Positions 1 through 16,879 of a stretch of 58,421 nucleotides of DNA are shown piece after piece; position 1 is the stretch's first letter, and each line of letters starts with the position of its first letter. Below the pieces are notes generated by a model. The model had not been told where the DNA came from, did not search any database, and saw nothing but the letters and a program-made list of their open reading frames with translations. The translations under genes and the position numbers were made by a program. Origin of the DNA: Rheinheimera sp. 1928-s (GTDB lineage Bacteria > Pseudomonadota > Gammaproteobacteria > Enterobacterales > Alteromonadaceae); contig NZ_JARIXP010000012.1 of NCBI RefSeq assembly GCF_029269265.1, positions 10,587 to 69,007 on the forward strand, given 5' to 3'.

Positions 1-413
1 CAGGCAAACTGCCGTTTACGCTAAAAGATGACACTTTTGATCATTTGACGTTACGACCAGCGGCTGAAGCCCCCAAAATTCAATACGCTAAACCCGACAA
101 TAAATTCAGCTTTGACCGTTTATCTTCAGTGTATTTATCCAACACCAACCATGAAGAAGATCAGCCCTGCCATTTAAAACTGGCCGATGCCTCTATTCCT
201 GTGCTGGTGAACTTAGCCTTGTACGACGAACCAGCACAGCGTTATTGCCCTGCAGGTGTTTACGAGATAGTGGAAGAAAATAATCAGCCACGATTGCAAA
301 TCAATGCGCAAAACTGCATTCACTGTAAAACCTGCGATATTAAAGATCCACGCCAGAACATCACCTGGGTCACACCTGAAGGTGCTGGTGGTCCAAACTA
401 CCCGAACATGTAA
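1..413 (+). CDS. electron transfer flavoprotein-ubiquinone oxidoreductase, C-terminal part
   Basis: Partial gene entering from the left edge; the reading frame is open from base 3 and ends with TAA at 411-413. About 136 residues remain. They match the C-terminal iron-sulfur part of ETF-QO, the inner-membrane flavoprotein that passes electrons from ETF to ubiquinone. Visible ligands for one [4Fe-4S] cluster are the Cys of RYCPAGVY and the three Cys of [12 protein letters not shown], followed by the typical tail [18 protein letters not shown]. The ending at a natural stop just after this tail shows that the 3' end is intact. The 5' part, with the FAD and quinone domains, lies outside the window. 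Confidence 0.93.
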
Positions 414-426
414 TAGTCAGGGGGAG

Positions 427-472
427 ATGGGATCAGAAGCAAAAAACTAAAATCGACAGCTTCTGATCCCAT
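427..472. repeat. 14-bp perfect inverted repeat after the ETF-QO gene
   Basis: Arms 427-440 and 459-472 are exact reverse complements (ATGGGATCAGAAGC) with an 18-base loop. It starts 14 bases after the ETF-QO stop and could act as a terminator, although only a weak T-rich stretch follows. The outer part, TGGGATCAGA, matches the outer part of the palindrome at 3768-3814 (TGGGGTCAGA) in 9 of 10 positions, so it may be a member of a dispersed palindromic repeat family. Confidence 0.7.
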
Positions 473-525
473 TTATTTCATATCCTTGTCGGATTAATGC
501 GATATTTTTCAGTTTTATTTTTCTG

Positions 526-556
526 ATTATCAAAAAGTTCAATTCTCTTTGATAAT
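526..556. repeat. 9-bp inverted repeat upstream of the tubulin-like gene
   Basis: ATTATCAAA at 526-534 is mirrored exactly by TTTGATAAT at 548-556, with 13 bases between. It lies 110 bases upstream of the start codon at 666, in an AT-rich leader. It could be an operator or an RNA hairpin; the sequence does not decide which. Confidence 0.5.
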
Positions 557-665
557 TTTGCTGTACTGTACTTCAAGCCAATTGTAATAATAGACAGCTA
601 AGTCTATGTTTATGACTCAGATCGAAAGTAGCTCAGAACAATAAAAACAGCTTGGAAGGTTATCC

Positions 666-2864
666 ATGAGTACAAAAGTGATAAAAAGCAGCGCCGGTAA
701 AGACGATGTAAATTTAACAGTGCGTCCATTCTCCGCCACTGAAACTGAAGCTGACCTGAATTTTGGTTCTGGCCGCTATATGTATTTCACTGAACGCGAC
801 CTGAGTCGGATCCTGTCCAATCTGGATGCCTTGCGAAACAGCGTGTTCCCTATTCCCCCCTCAGAAGTTGAAGACGTTAACAGACGACAGCAACAGTTTC
901 CTTCGGTTTGTTTAATTGGCTTAGGTCGATGTGGCTCTAATATAGCGCTTGATGTGGCGTCTCTTGTCTATAATGCCCGCAGCTTCTATATGAACGAATT
1001 TAATATTGAAGAACGTCAGCAAAAAGAAACCGAATACCGCCCTGTACGCTGGATCAAAAAAGGCCTGAATCTGGATAAGTCGCATCAGGTGAAACCGGTG
1101 TTTTTGATTGAGCCTTTGGTGATGCTGGGTGACCTGGATAAAGATATCGAAGGTCGTATTCGTTTTTCTCATAAAGGTGAAAAATCCAATTTCCTGCAAG
1201 ACTATAACAAAATGAAAATTATGGACTTATCTGAAGTCCATGCTGGTGGTGCAGGTAACGCTCCTATTCTGGGTCAGTATTTAGCGAAAATCATTCTGAA
1301 CAAAGACACACAGAAGTTTTCCAACCCGGACTGGAAATTTATCCACTCTTACCTGATTGACTCTTGTGGCATCAAAGCCAACCAATCCCGTCTGTATTTT
1401 TATATTTTCAGCGCCGGTGGTGGTACAGGTTCTGGTATGGCGTCTGAGTTTGGTTTGGCCCAGCAGTACGCTTATATGGCTAAAACTTTTGATACCAGGC
1501 CAGAAATGGAAAATGAAGCCAACGCTGGCCACTCTTTTGTATTTGAACCTATCTTCACCAGCGGTATCTGTATTCTGCCGAATATTACCGATCACGGCGT
1601 GGAGATGTCAGAAGCTCTGCATATCAACTCAGGCCGTTTGTTATGTAAGTATTTGGCTGAAGAATGGGATTTCTCGTACAACCTGGAAAATGAAGACAGC
1701 GCCGAATCCAGTGTGATGCACCGCATCCGTCCCTGGAACGCGATGATGCTGATTTCTAATGACATCATGCGTTATGCCGAAGAAACCGATGACGGTGAAA
1801 TTCAGCATATTGACGTGAATGCCATGGAAAAATATGCCAACCAGTATATTTCCCAGCAGATTTTTAACATCTTAACAGCTCAGGCTGTGACCACAGATTA
1901 CGACGAAAACTACTTCCGCCGTGCCGGTATCGACATTGGGGAAACCATACGTTTAGATGCCAACGACTTATTTATGAGTCTGGCAGGCCCTGTGGCTGTG
2001 GCTTATGCTGAGTCTGTGATCCCAAGTACTCCTGCTGCAGTGGATAAACTGAAGTTGTTTGATAAAAACAGCAACAGCGGTCTGAATATTGACGACCTGT
2101 TTTTCCGCTCCATTGACCTGCCCCACTTTAATAAAGTAACGCAGGCCATCGAAGGCATCAGTTTGTTACCTATCGAATCTGGCCGTTACCGTGACGCTTT
2201 AGCTTCTTATGTAAAAAGTGGTTACGATCCAAAAGACTTAAAAGACCTGCACTTCTTCAAGAACTGCTCGTCCGTTGTGTCTATTATCTCGTTGCCAAAA
2301 GACTACAAGCTGTCGTACATGGATTTAAATCGCCTGAAAAGCCATTTAAATACCTTGTTCCCGAACACGACGTTAAAGCGTTACGCGCTGGTGATTGGCG
2401 CTTCAGCCAATATCTCGCTGACCACTTTGATTGTTAAGAGTCCGTGTTTAAGTGATGACTTCCTGACCTTGATCGTGTCTTTTATCAAACGTTGTTTTGC
2501 CAAAGACGATTATCGTTTTAACGACTCACTGGACAAAGCCATGCTGGACTTTATCCGGGACGATCATTTTGATGAAGAACGTCTGGACGATATGCTGCAC
2601 GAATTTGAAAACCCGGCAAAAATTCTCGATACCAACTGGTATGCTATTAAACCTATGTACGAGAAAAAATACCGTGAGCTTATTCGTAATAAAGACAAGT
2701 TTGTCTCTATTAATGACATTCGTTTATCCCGTGACAGTGTGAAAAAGTCTATTCACTATCTGCGTGAAATTTATCGTCATAAGATCAGTAAAACTAAGGT
2801 TATTTCACTGAATAACCTGTCCGATAAAGGTGCTAAACCTGAGCCTGGCGCGGATAAAGCCTAA
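666..2864 (+). CDS. tubulin/FtsZ-like GTPase domain protein (732 aa)
   Basis: ATG at 666 is preceded by a good GGAAGG ribosome site. The protein has the three phosphate-binding signatures of the tubulin/FtsZ fold in the right order: a T1-like loop GLGRCGSN at residues 85-92, a T3-like loop AGGAGN at 193-198 and the diagnostic AGGGTGSG (T4) at 250-257. A possible T7-like segment, GLNIDD, is at 472-477, but the second acidic residue of the usual FtsZ motif is not obvious. About 84 residues precede the GTPase core and roughly 230 charged residues follow it, ending in a short basic and Pro/Gly tail. It is much longer than FtsZ (about 390 aa), and the overall look is closest to the uncharacterised 'tubulin-like' family (Pfam Tubulin_2 type). 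The gene stands alone, with its own long leader and a terminator at 2871. Function unknown; GTP-dependent polymerisation is an inference from the motifs. Confidence 0.8.
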   Translation: MSTKVIKSSAGKDDVNLTVRPFSATETEADLNFGSGRYMYFTERDLSRILSNLDALRNSVFPIPPSEVEDVNRRQQQFPSVCLIGLGRCGSNIALDVASLVYNARSFYMNEFNIEERQQKETEYRPVRWIKKGLNLDKSHQVKPVFLIEPLVMLGDLDKDIEGRIRFSHKGEKSNFLQDYNKMKIMDLSEVHAGGAGNAPILGQYLAKIILNKDTQKFSNPDWKFIHSYLIDSCGIKANQSRLYFYIFSAGGGTGSGMASEFGLAQQYAYMAKTFDTRPEMENEANAGHSFVFEPIFTSGICILPNITDHGVEMSEALHINSGRLLCKYLAEEWDFSYNLENEDSAESSVMHRIRPWNAMMLISNDIMRYAEETDDGEIQHIDVNAMEKYANQYISQQIFNILTAQAVTTDYDENYFRRAGIDIGETIRLDANDLFMSLAGPVAVAYAESVIPSTPAAVDKLKLFDKNSNSGLNIDDLFFRSIDLPHFNKVTQAIEGISLLPIESGRYRDALASYVKSGYDPKDLKDLHFFKNCSSVVSIISLPKDYKLSYMDLNRLKSHLNTLFPNTTLKRYALVIGASANISLTTLIVKSPCLSDDFLTLIVSFIKRCFAKDDYRFNDSLDKAMLDFIRDDHFDEERLDDMLHEFENPAKILDTNWYAIKPMYEKKYRELIRNKDKFVSINDIRLSRDSVKKSIHYLREIYRHKISKTKVISLNNLSDKGAKPEPGADKA

Positions 2865-2870
2865 GTCGCA

Positions 2871-2897
2871 AGCCTCCGCTGTGCGGGGGCTTTTTTT
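2871..2897 (+). terminator. rho-independent terminator of the tubulin-like gene
   Basis: A 9-bp GC-rich stem (2871-2879 with 2883-2891, one G-T pair) with a 3-base loop runs directly into seven T residues. It begins 6 bases after the stop codon, so the tubulin-like gene is transcribed separately from the phosphatase gene. Confidence 0.9.
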
Positions 2898-2930
2898 ATG
2901 TTTATCTTTTTTCCTTATAACGGAGTCCTA

Positions 2931-3758
2931 ATGAACCTCTCTCACTCCTTGCTGCTGGGCAGCTTTATGTTGTGCTCTTTTACCTTACAAGCCAACACTC
3001 ACGACAATATGAATGCCACCTTGTGGTACCAAAGTTCTGCAGAATTTAAAGCCAGTGCTATTCAGACTTATCAAACAGCGGCTTTACAGCTGCCTTTGGC
3101 GATAGCGGATAAAAACTGGACAGCTTTGACAAACCAGAAAGAGAATTTCCAACAACTGCCGCCCGCTATTATTGTCGATATTGATGAGACTATTCTGGAT
3201 AACTCCCCTGTTGCTGCACAAAGTGTGTTGTTAAATGCGGGTTTTGATCCAAAACTGTGGGACCAATGGGTCGCAATGGCTTCAGCCAAAGCTATACCGG
3301 GCGCGGTGTCTTTTGTCAACAAAGCTGAAGCAGCTGGCGTCAAAGTATTGTATATCAGCAATAGAGAGTGCGAAAAACGCACAGGGGTAAATGATAGCTG
3401 CCCACAAAAAAACGATACGCTGCGTAATTTAAAAGCTGTAGGTATAGAAAAAGTTGATGCTTCACAAATCTGGTTAAAGTCAGAACAGCCGCTCTGGAGC
3501 AGCGAAAAAGAAAGCCGCCGCCTGCTGGCTGCCAAAGACTTTCGCATTTTAATGTCGATTGGCGATGATTTTGGTGATTTCCTGCCTGACGTGAAGAAAA
3601 ACATCACACCAGAACAACGTTCCACTTTGGTGGATACCTACCAGAACTACTGGGGAACAAAATGGTTTGTATTAGCCAACCCAACTTATGGATCCTGGCA
3701 GACTATTTTAGAACAACCTAATAGCCAGTATTTGCAGTCAGTACCATCCAAACAATAA
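2931..3758 (+). CDS. secreted class C (e(P4)-like) acid phosphatase / 5'-nucleotidase, HAD family
   Basis: The start at 2931 is preferred over the in-frame ATG at 2898, because 2931 has CGGAG seven bases upstream and opens directly into a signal peptide (MNLSHSLLLGSF..., probable cleavage after LQA). The mature enzyme shows the HAD nucleophile motif DIDET (Asp83 and Asp85), then ILDNS, the YISNRE segment and the acidic GDDFGDF motif near the C-terminus, all typical of the class C acid phosphatase / lipoprotein e(P4) group. These enzymes hydrolyse phosphate monoesters, including nucleotides, in the periplasm. Unlike e(P4) there is no lipobox before the cleavage site, so the product is probably soluble rather than a lipoprotein. 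The gene is convergent with the aldo/keto reductase. Confidence 0.88.
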   Translation: MNLSHSLLLGSFMLCSFTLQANTHDNMNATLWYQSSAEFKASAIQTYQTAALQLPLAIADKNWTALTNQKENFQQLPPAIIVDIDETILDNSPVAAQSVLLNAGFDPKLWDQWVAMASAKAIPGAVSFVNKAEAAGVKVLYISNRECEKRTGVNDSCPQKNDTLRNLKAVGIEKVDASQIWLKSEQPLWSSEKESRRLLAAKDFRILMSIGDDFGDFLPDVKKNITPEQRSTLVDTYQNYWGTKWFVLANPTYGSWQTILEQPNSQYLQSVPSKQ

Positions 3759-4940: not shown

Positions 4941-5717
4941 GTGGAGCAAACAACATTGTTTCGTTTAAATAAATTTATTAGTGACACAGGTTTTTGTTCA
5001 CGCCGGGAAGCCGATAAGCTGATTGAACAGGGCCTGGTGACCGTCAATGGTCAGGTGGGCACGCTAGGCACCAAAGTCCTCGAACATGATCAGGTGCTGG
5101 TGCAAGGCAAACCGCTCAAAGCCAAACCTCGGCGGGTTTATCTGGCCTACCATAAAGCTGTTGGTATTACCTGCACCACAGAGCTGGATGTCAAAGGCAA
5201 CATCATTGACGCCATAGGTTATCCCGAACGTATTTTCCCCATAGGCCGGTTGGATAAAGAATCTGAAGGGTTGATTTTTTTGACCAACGATGGCGATATC
5301 GTTAATAAAATTCTGCGCGCCGGCAACGAGCATGAAAAAGAATACGTAGTCACGGTCGATAAACCTGTTACAGAGCAGTTTTTGCGTAAAATGGCCTCTG
5401 GCGTGCCTATCCTCGAGACCATTACCTTGCCTTGTCAGGTGAAACAAATTTCCCGCCAAACCTTTAATATTATTCTGACACAGGGTTTAAACCGGCAAAT
5501 TCGTCGTATGACGGAATTTTTAGGCTTTAATGTCACTAAACTCAAACGTGTCCGTATTATGAATGTACGTTTGGCTGAGCTAAAAGCAGGTCAATACCGT
5601 GAACTGACCCAGGCTGAAATGGCAGAACTGGAATCCAAGTTATTAAGCTCAAGCAAAACTGAAGAAGCCTCGCTTTTGGCCACGCCGAAAGCTAATCCAA
5701 GCCAAAGACAGAACTAA
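4941..5717 (+). CDS. rluF: 23S rRNA pseudouridine(2604) synthase RluF
   Basis: Begins with GTG at 4941. An N-terminal S4 RNA-binding domain (about residues 7-60, RLNKFISDTGFCSRREADKLI) is followed by the RsuA-type synthase domain with catalytic Asp105 in GRLDKESEG. The stretch VNKILRAGNEHEKEY and the motif QGLNRQIRRM are diagnostic for RluF, which converts U2604 of 23S rRNA to pseudouridine. The last 30 residues are a low-complexity tail, also seen in E. coli RluF. The stop codon overlaps the dctB start by one base (TAATG), so the three downstream reading frames are probably co-transcribed or translationally coupled. Confidence 0.94.
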   Translation: MEQTTLFRLNKFISDTGFCSRREADKLIEQGLVTVNGQVGTLGTKVLEHDQVLVQGKPLKAKPRRVYLAYHKAVGITCTTELDVKGNIIDAIGYPERIFPIGRLDKESEGLIFLTNDGDIVNKILRAGNEHEKEYVVTVDKPVTEQFLRKMASGVPILETITLPCQVKQISRQTFNIILTQGLNRQIRRMTEFLGFNVTKLKRVRIMNVRLAELKAGQYRELTQAEMAELESKLLSSSKTEEASLLATPKANPSQRQN

Positions 5718-12945: not shown

Positions 12946-13021
12946 TGGAGCGGGCAACGAGGCTCGAACTCGTGACCTCGACCTTGGCAAGGTCGCGCTC
13001 TACCAACTGAGCTATGCCCGC
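12946..13021 (-). tRNA. tRNA-Gly (GCC), second copy
   Basis: A 76-base cloverleaf read on the minus strand, starting GCGGGCATAGCTCAG and ending with an encoded CCA (TGG at 12946-12948 on the plus strand). The anticodon loop TTGCCAA gives anticodon GCC. It is identical over its whole length to the copy at 13330-13405. It is the last gene of a four-tRNA minus-strand operon. Confidence 0.97.
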
Positions 13022-13096
13022 TTAGGCACTTTGCAGATAACAACCTGCTTTGGTATTTGTTGTTCTTTAGACCATCCCAACATCTTATTATTGAGA

Positions 13097-13183
13097 TGGT
13101 GCCCGGGGCCGGACTTGAACCGGCACGCCCTTTCGAGCGAGGGATTTTAAATCCCTTGTGTCTACCGATTTCACCACCCGGGC
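13097..13183 (-). tRNA. tRNA-Leu (TAA)
   Basis: An 87-base class II tRNA on the minus strand with acceptor GCCCGGG/CCCGGGC, anticodon loop TTTAAAA (anticodon TAA), a long variable arm and an encoded CCA. It corresponds to leuZ in the E. coli glyW-cysT-leuZ operon. Confidence 0.97.
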
Positions 13184-13240
13184 AAACACTTTTCTATTTT
13201 GCATTACAGCCAACAGCACTAAACCAAGTACAGCATTTAA

Positions 13241-13314
13241 TGGAGGCGGGTCCCGGAGTCGAACCGAGGTGGACGGATTTGCAATCCGCTGCATGGCCAT
13301 TCTGCCAACCCGCC
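13241..13314 (-). tRNA. tRNA-Cys (GCA)
   Basis: A 74-base cloverleaf on the minus strand with acceptor GGCGGGT, anticodon loop TTGCAAA (anticodon GCA) and encoded CCA. It takes the cysT position of the conserved pgsA-glyW-cysT-leuZ order. Confidence 0.97.
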
Positions 13315-13329
13315 ATCTGGCGTACGACT

Positions 13330-13405
13330 TGGAGCGGGCAACGAGGCTCGAACTCGTGACCTCGACCTTGGCAAGGTCGCGCTCTACCAACTGAGCTATG
13401 CCCGC
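13330..13405 (-). tRNA. tRNA-Gly (GCC), first copy
   Basis: A 76-base cloverleaf on the minus strand, anticodon GCC, encoded CCA. It is the promoter-proximal tRNA of the operon, matching glyW downstream of pgsA in E. coli, and is an exact copy of the tRNA at 12946-13021. Confidence 0.97.
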
Positions 13406-16788: not shown

Positions 16789-16879
16789 TGGCGGAGGGGG
16801 AGAGATTCGAACTCTCGGAAGGCTATTAACCTTCGCCGGTTTTCAAGACCGGTGCATTAAACCGCTCTGCCACCCCTCC
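16789..16879 (-). tRNA. tRNA-Ser (TGA)
   Basis: A 91-base class II tRNA read on the minus strand: acceptor GGAGGGG/CCCCTCC, anticodon loop CTTGAAA (anticodon TGA), a long variable arm with a paired stem, and encoded CCA at 16789-16791. Confidence 0.97.

Follow-up and report, generated by a model that had tools for sequence, protein, structure and literature searches.

A large stand-alone tubulin/FtsZ-superfamily protein of Rheinheimera that fits the FtsZl2 family

The gene at positions 666–2864 of the window, the whole 58,421-nt stretch of Rheinheimera sp. 1928-s DNA that was analysed, encodes a large stand-alone protein of the tubulin/FtsZ superfamily, as the initial annotation of this DNA had proposed, and its product fits the 2010 description of FtsZl2, an FtsZ/tubulin family of Proteobacteria (Makarova and Koonin 2010, PMC2875224). 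As far as the family description in that paper goes, the protein is thus not the previously undescribed GTPase that it had been taken for. The superfamily motifs are in place, the protein is strongly conserved, and no neighboring gene is common to most clades. We assign a probability of about 0.5 to the reading that FtsZl2 is an accessory, chromosomal, and self-sufficient GTPase that forms GTP-dependent filaments, in which polymerization is what we infer from FtsZ and tubulin.

By analogy with these two proteins, GTP would be bound through the T1–T4 loops and FtsZl2 subunits would polymerize head to tail; contact between the T7 acids (probably D431 and D434) of one subunit and the nucleotide of the next would bring about GTP hydrolysis, which would make the FtsZl2 filament dynamic. 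Because no dedicated partner gene travels along with it, FtsZl2 probably acts by itself or together with a core component of the cell, perhaps at the membrane via its conserved amphipathic ends. More tentatively, we entertain the wider idea of an optional second tubulin-type cytoskeleton that is gained and lost as a single gene, forms a partner-free GTP filament, is held more tightly than FtsZ, and has a core component as its target. The family itself was known before; relative to its published description, what is new here comprises 454 related stretches, patchy presence, signs of transfer, the absence of a widely common neighbor, and an identity above that of FtsZ in one genome pair. Many Pseudomonas carry a tubulin-superfamily protein that is, in that pair, more similar than FtsZ, and the function of FtsZl2 would tell whether tubulin cytoskeletons exist in bacteria as optional systems of a single gene. 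The features discussed are collected in table 1.

Table 1. Features of the FtsZl2 gene, its product, and its flanks (window positions)
Feature	Position	Strand	Basis
14-nt perfect inverted repeat, 18-nt loop, 3' of upstream gene	427–472 (arms 427–440/459–472)	+	
TAGACAGCTAAGTCTA, candidate operator	591–606	+	10/12 loci L001–L012, own included
Ribosome-binding site GGAAGG, 6 nt 5' of ATG	654–659	+	Read from sequence; identical in 10/10 aligned rows including window
CDS, 732 aa, FtsZl2-type tubulin/FtsZ-superfamily GTPase	666–2864	+	ATG ORF, translation; relatives in genome contigs; dN/dS
Conserved N-terminal stretch, residues 41–57, amphipathic if helical	786–836	+	Conservation over 127 members; putative role
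T1-like loop GLGRCGSN, residues 85–92	918–941	+	124/127 members; in register with FtsZ glycine loop
T3-like loop AGGAGNAP, residues 193–200	1242–1265	+	117/127, AGGSGNAP in 10; in register with FtsZ GAGANP
T4-like loop AGGGTGSG, residues 250–257	1413–1436	+	127/127; in register with FtsZ GGGTGTG
Candidate T6, SND, residues 364–366	1755–1763	+	Each residue 127/127; register set by hand
Candidate helix H7, residues 384–408	1815–1889	+	Placed by order; ANQYISQQIFNILTAQAV (391–408) in 124/127
Candidate T7 (preferred), IRLDANDLF, residues 428–436, D431 + D434	1947–1973	+	R429–L435 identical in 127/127
Candidate T7 (initial annotation), GLNIDD, residues 472–477	2079–2096	+	D476 in 124/127, D477 in 121/127
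Candidate FtsZ-like C-terminal domain, residues 535–600	2268–2465	+	Profile scan; low-confidence model
Candidate C-terminal helix, residues 685–708, basic, amphipathic	2718–2789	+	Top 18-residue hydrophobic moment in protein; putative role
Terminator-like hairpin	2870–2892	+	Sequence scan

Superfamily motifs and family membership

The open reading frame, with its ATG start and 732 residues confirmed from the sequence, is a real gene: dN/dS, calculated for the FtsZl2 gene only, is 0.020, 0.011, and 0.018 in three close pairs (with L002, L008, and L012, respectively), dS being not computable for six distant members. Relatives were collected from 151 loci that yielded 142 proteins, 128 of them distinct, and one chance open reading frame (L115) was left out, resulting in a set of 127 members, own included, in which 257 of the 732 residues are invariant. 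The T1-, T3-, and T4-like loops lie at the residues at which they had been annotated and are conserved. Two MAFFT methods place all three in register with FtsZ in a joint alignment of 24 of the 127 members with 31 of 32 FtsZ sequences, and at the sequence level the loop matches exceed chance.

Profile searches, which had been suggested as a check, did match the window protein to the Pfam models Tubulin and Tubulin_2, but under the curated cut-offs (17.4 bits against 33 and 12.2 bits against 27, respectively). In one alignment of 58 members both models match all 58 (E up to 1), below cut-off where scores are given; the best member match to Tubulin_2 has an E value of 0.00092, and the best Tubulin score in eight further members is 21.9 bits. 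Searches with the window protein gave no match among NCBIfam and PADLOC profiles and one match in PHROGs (E 1.5). Sequence searches of the PDB gave no credible relative, the best hit (E 0.25) being judged to be chance. HH-suite comparison with FtsZ returned a probability of 5.4% and an E value of 0.0071 over residues 195–277 only, and nothing in global mode. We base the fold assignment, which is thus one from sequence, on the motifs, the weak Pfam matches, and the account of the family in PMC2875224.

The type protein of FtsZl2 is PFL_1302 from P. fluorescens Pf-5, and the description of the family lists T1, T4, T6, T7, and H7 as present together with a C-terminal region of about 300 aa that is mixed alpha/beta and has no coiled coil; the same description gives no associated genes and no functional clue, membrane remodeling being a function suggested there mainly for FtsZl1, its sister family (Makarova and Koonin 2010, PMC2875224). 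Like that family, the window protein is gammaproteobacterial, has a T1 loop and a GGGTGSG T4 loop as well as a long C-terminal region, and is encoded stand-alone beside a true FtsZ; we found no difference in this comparison, which was made with the family description rather than with the PFL_1302 sequence. Tubulin_2-type FtsZ-like proteins have elsewhere been set apart from the main trees, as far as that account covers them (PMC9871819).

The protein shares with FtsZ the three loops in register and perhaps a similar C-terminal domain. It differs in its sub-cut-off Tubulin score, in its size, with extra ends and inserts (732 aa, against 395 aa for FtsZ in the same genome, whose gene sits on another contig), and in its neighbors, which are etfQO, acid phosphatase, and aldo/keto reductase genes and offer no division context. 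The earlier view that it is not FtsZ therefore stands. With FtsZl1 and other Tubulin_2 proteins it has in common the weak Tubulin_2 matches; however, its own match falls short of the cut-off, and none of nine scanned neighbors has a vWA or small GTPase domain, one of them being a sensor histidine kinase. Pseudomonas protegens FD6 (we take P. protegens to be the present name of P. fluorescens Pf-5) encodes a single homolog and one FtsZ over cut-off, with one further match below it (two in genome G000). No Tubulin_2 match was found in a search of the FD6 genome, and the same search missed the FtsZl2 gene too; because the genome searches with the FtsZ and Tubulin_2 models did not report the FtsZl2 gene itself, their negatives are weak. 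No experimental study of FtsZl2 came up in the literature searched, where the name FtsZl2 turns up in PMC7327170 as well; this is not proof of absence.

Placement of T6, H7, and T7 and the terminal regions

Beyond T4 the comparison with FtsZ becomes ambiguous. The T6–H7–T7 register is not recovered by the two MAFFT methods, which disagree with each other in the alignment of 24 members and 31 FtsZ sequences, and the T6 register is recovered neither by automatic alignment nor by an FtsZ-profile scan; in such a scan for H7 the segment at residue 387 ranks fourth. T7 had been placed at GLNIDD, said to lack a clear second catalytic acid and hence to imply slow GTP hydrolysis. The segment is where it was reported, but its assignment as T7 is not established, since IRLDANDLF scores alike: in FtsZ-profile scans over 17, 11, and 7 residues IRLDANDLF ranks 14/716, 4/722, and 4/726 and GLNIDD 16/716, 2/722, and 2/726, so that, from sequence, the profile does not choose between them. 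Nor are the missing second acid and the slow hydrolysis established, as IRLDANDLF offers D431 and D434, both present in 127/127 members. In GLNIDD, members without D476 or D477 have N or E instead, and L473, N474, and G472 are kept in 102, 85, and 35 of the 127 members, respectively.

Spacing splits the two sites. Two distances do not change across members, the 47 residues (both ends counted) from residue 385 to IRLDANDLF and the interval between 477 and 566, and the stretch between D434 and D477 ranges in length from 31 to 46 residues. In the genome's own FtsZ, the T6 Asn lies 44 residues and the H7 Asn 22 residues before the first T7 acid, and the second acid 48 residues before the C-domain strand; with anchors in FtsZl2 chosen by hand (N365, N392, and V538), the same three intervals are 66, 39, and 104 residues for the 431 site and 111, 84, and 61 residues for the 476/477 site. 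The former is thus closer to FtsZ when counted from T6 and H7, and the latter when counted towards the C-domain. We lean towards IRLDANDLF as T7 for its invariance and its nearness to H7.

A T6–T7 part that cannot be aligned automatically and an ambiguous T7, along with long inserts, a conserved C-terminal part past the FtsZ-like segment, and the lack of a partner gene, would also suit a GTP-binding switch or scaffold that does not polymerize, keeps the tubulin pocket, and acts on a core component through its C-terminal region. We regard this as rather unlikely, given that two sites with conserved acids suit a T7 loop and that the FtsZl2 description in PMC2875224 reports T6, H7, and T7 as present. 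More generally, a cytoskeletal or a signaling role, both of which had been raised, is possible.

Both ends of the protein had been described as additions to the fold, an N-terminal extension of 84 residues and about 230 extra C-terminal residues. These descriptions are overstated: the N-terminal stretch near 41–57 is conserved, and part of the C-terminal region resembles the C-terminal domain of FtsZ, a resemblance that is suggestive, not proof. In a scan with the two segments of that domain, the first scored best at residue 535 and the second had its second-best position at 574, behind 150, and a low-confidence model has residues 535–600 as strand–helix–strand–strand. Mean pLDDT of the AlphaFold2 models, for which the inputs were 58 rows (window plus L020–L099) and then 64 rows, was 32.2 for the whole protein and 48.3 for residues 475–716; the models are probably poor because the input relatives are too alike (76–99% identity).

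In the N-terminal stretch, the 18-residue segments starting at 36 and 37 rank fifth and sixth in the protein by hydrophobic moment, and the regions with the strongest amphipathic moment, located close to the two ends, possibly contact a membrane or a partner. Such conserved regions would agree with a special case of the GTP-filament reading, namely a filament that remodels membranes or organizes the envelope, for which an L,D-transpeptidase gene among the neighbors, in Cellvibrio only, could also be cited. We think this improbable: there is no clear transmembrane segment (highest 19-residue Kyte–Doolittle mean 1.43), and the description of FtsZl2 in PMC2875224 holds no functional clue.

Genome context, conservation, and distribution

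Pfam searches identify the end of an ETF-ubiquinone oxidoreductase gene (etfQO) upstream and acid phosphatase, aldo/keto reductase, pseudouridine synthase, and sensor histidine kinase genes downstream. To compare neighborhoods, ORFs within 8 kb were clustered for 85 loci in ten groups, leaving out 13 short loci (L001–L012 and L018), the broken L016, and more distant members found later; the 8-kb flanks are complete on either side in 66 of the 85, and in 11 a side is shorter than 3 kb. Neighbors are constant within clades: 25 loci (21 Rheinheimera-type and 4 Alkalimonas) have etfQO immediately upstream, and 40 of 45 Pseudomonas loci have a periplasmic binding protein gene, identified by Pfam on L072, downstream. 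Three of the ten groups have one cluster in common; every other cluster is found in two groups or fewer, those in two groups being mostly shared by Rheinheimera and Alkalimonas or by Cellvibrio and the metagenome-assembled genome at L044, which was grouped with Rheinheimera. An operon partner is rejected on this survey, which bears out the annotated lack of a partner gene and agrees with the absence of associated genes in the FtsZl2 description.

The cluster found in three groups is the pseudouridine-synthase ORF (window 4941–5717), present at L013, 20 Rheinheimera-type loci, and 3 Pseudomonas loci, where it is almost 8 kb away; in L013 it lies 76 bp 3' of the gene on the opposite strand.

FtsZl2 is more conserved than FtsZ in the only pair of genomes for which both were compared, the window protein being 79.5% identical to its P. 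protegens FD6 homolog (693 residues) and the FtsZ proteins of the same genomes 62.2% identical (399 residues). Relative to L048, identity is 96.3% for FtsZl2, 94.7% for EtfQO, 96.1% for EtfA, 96.8% for EtfB, 85.8% for the histidine kinase, and 84.3% for the acid phosphatase; relative to the distant Rheinheimera-type loci L030, L031, L034, and L038, it is 83.2–84.7% for FtsZl2 and 87.6–89.6% for EtfB. As EtfB is as conserved or more so in several relatives, FtsZl2 is among the most conserved proteins there, not the top one.

Genome searches covered the phylum of the window. With its own genome counted, the gene is present in 16 of 60 relatives and 12 of 22 genomes of the genus, in 2/369 genomes at the class level, 9/398 at the phylum level, and 29/295 in its own order; in the order of genome G548 it is present in 13/244. 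In a genome-contig collection, 557 stretches matched the search patterns, which limit the reach of this search, and 454 of them were confirmed; the best 80 of the 454 are Gammaproteobacteria by title. Genome G043 (L016; counted in the relatives, phylum, and own-order tallies) has the gene in pieces with stops, and G1106 (L151; counted in the own-order tally) apparently also has it in pieces, as two fragments covering 514–720. Such fragmentary copies point to the possibility of gene loss and, along with the absence of the gene from many relatives, indicate that it is dispensable. Among ten genus genomes without the gene, the etfQO end was recovered in nine; a phosphatase match follows it after 87–327 bp in six of these and is not within the 1.5 kb examined in the remaining three, so that within the genus a single gene seems to be cleanly present or missing. 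A tree of 68 members, from a quick search with SH-aLRT support and several long branches flagged, nests Cellvibrio within the Rheinheimera–Alkalimonas clade and intermixes families f9 and f209, which belong to different orders; both observations suggest horizontal transfer.

Plasmid TubZ and phage PhuZ belong to the tubulin superfamily as well, and the signs of transfer would fit a now chromosomal filament that positions DNA in the manner of TubZ and came from a plasmid or phage. This is very unlikely, as neither 72,556 plasmid records nor 50,697 phage records contained a match, none of 240 pattern-matching stretches from viral contigs was confirmed (records of the window's own genome may be absent from all three collections), and no partner gene recurs, in line with the annotated lack of a TubZ-like setting. 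A DNA search of E. coli gave no match either, and these collections speak against an origin of the gene in plasmids, phages, other viruses, or E. coli. An anti-phage or other defense protein, to which patchy presence and signs of transfer might point, is least probable, given the missing PADLOC match, the constant position within clades next to metabolic genes, and dN/dS near 0.01–0.02.

The leader, terminator, and flanking palindromes with which the gene had been credited were found as the ribosome-binding site, hairpin, and 14-nt repeat of table 1. The 380–3000 region has 5 terminator-like sites against 2.3 expected, which makes a single match weak. The 14-nt repeat, possibly the terminator of the upstream gene, is mostly kept across ten aligned rows. 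The TAGACAGCTAAGTCTA pattern is confined to Rheinheimera-type loci among the 141 scanned, and an operator common to several clades is rejected. Upstream of the gene, positions 480–660 are unusually conserved in ten rows, mean column identity being 89% over 414–700, which takes in the first codons of the gene, and a 12-nt inverted repeat, ATTATCAAAAAG/CTCTTTGATAAT (92%, 7 nt apart), lies at 526–556. Farther along the window, genes for tRNA-Gly(GCC), tRNA-Leu, tRNA-Cys, and a second tRNA-Gly(GCC) are clustered on the minus strand at 12946–13405, and one for tRNA-Ser lies beyond them at 16789–16879.
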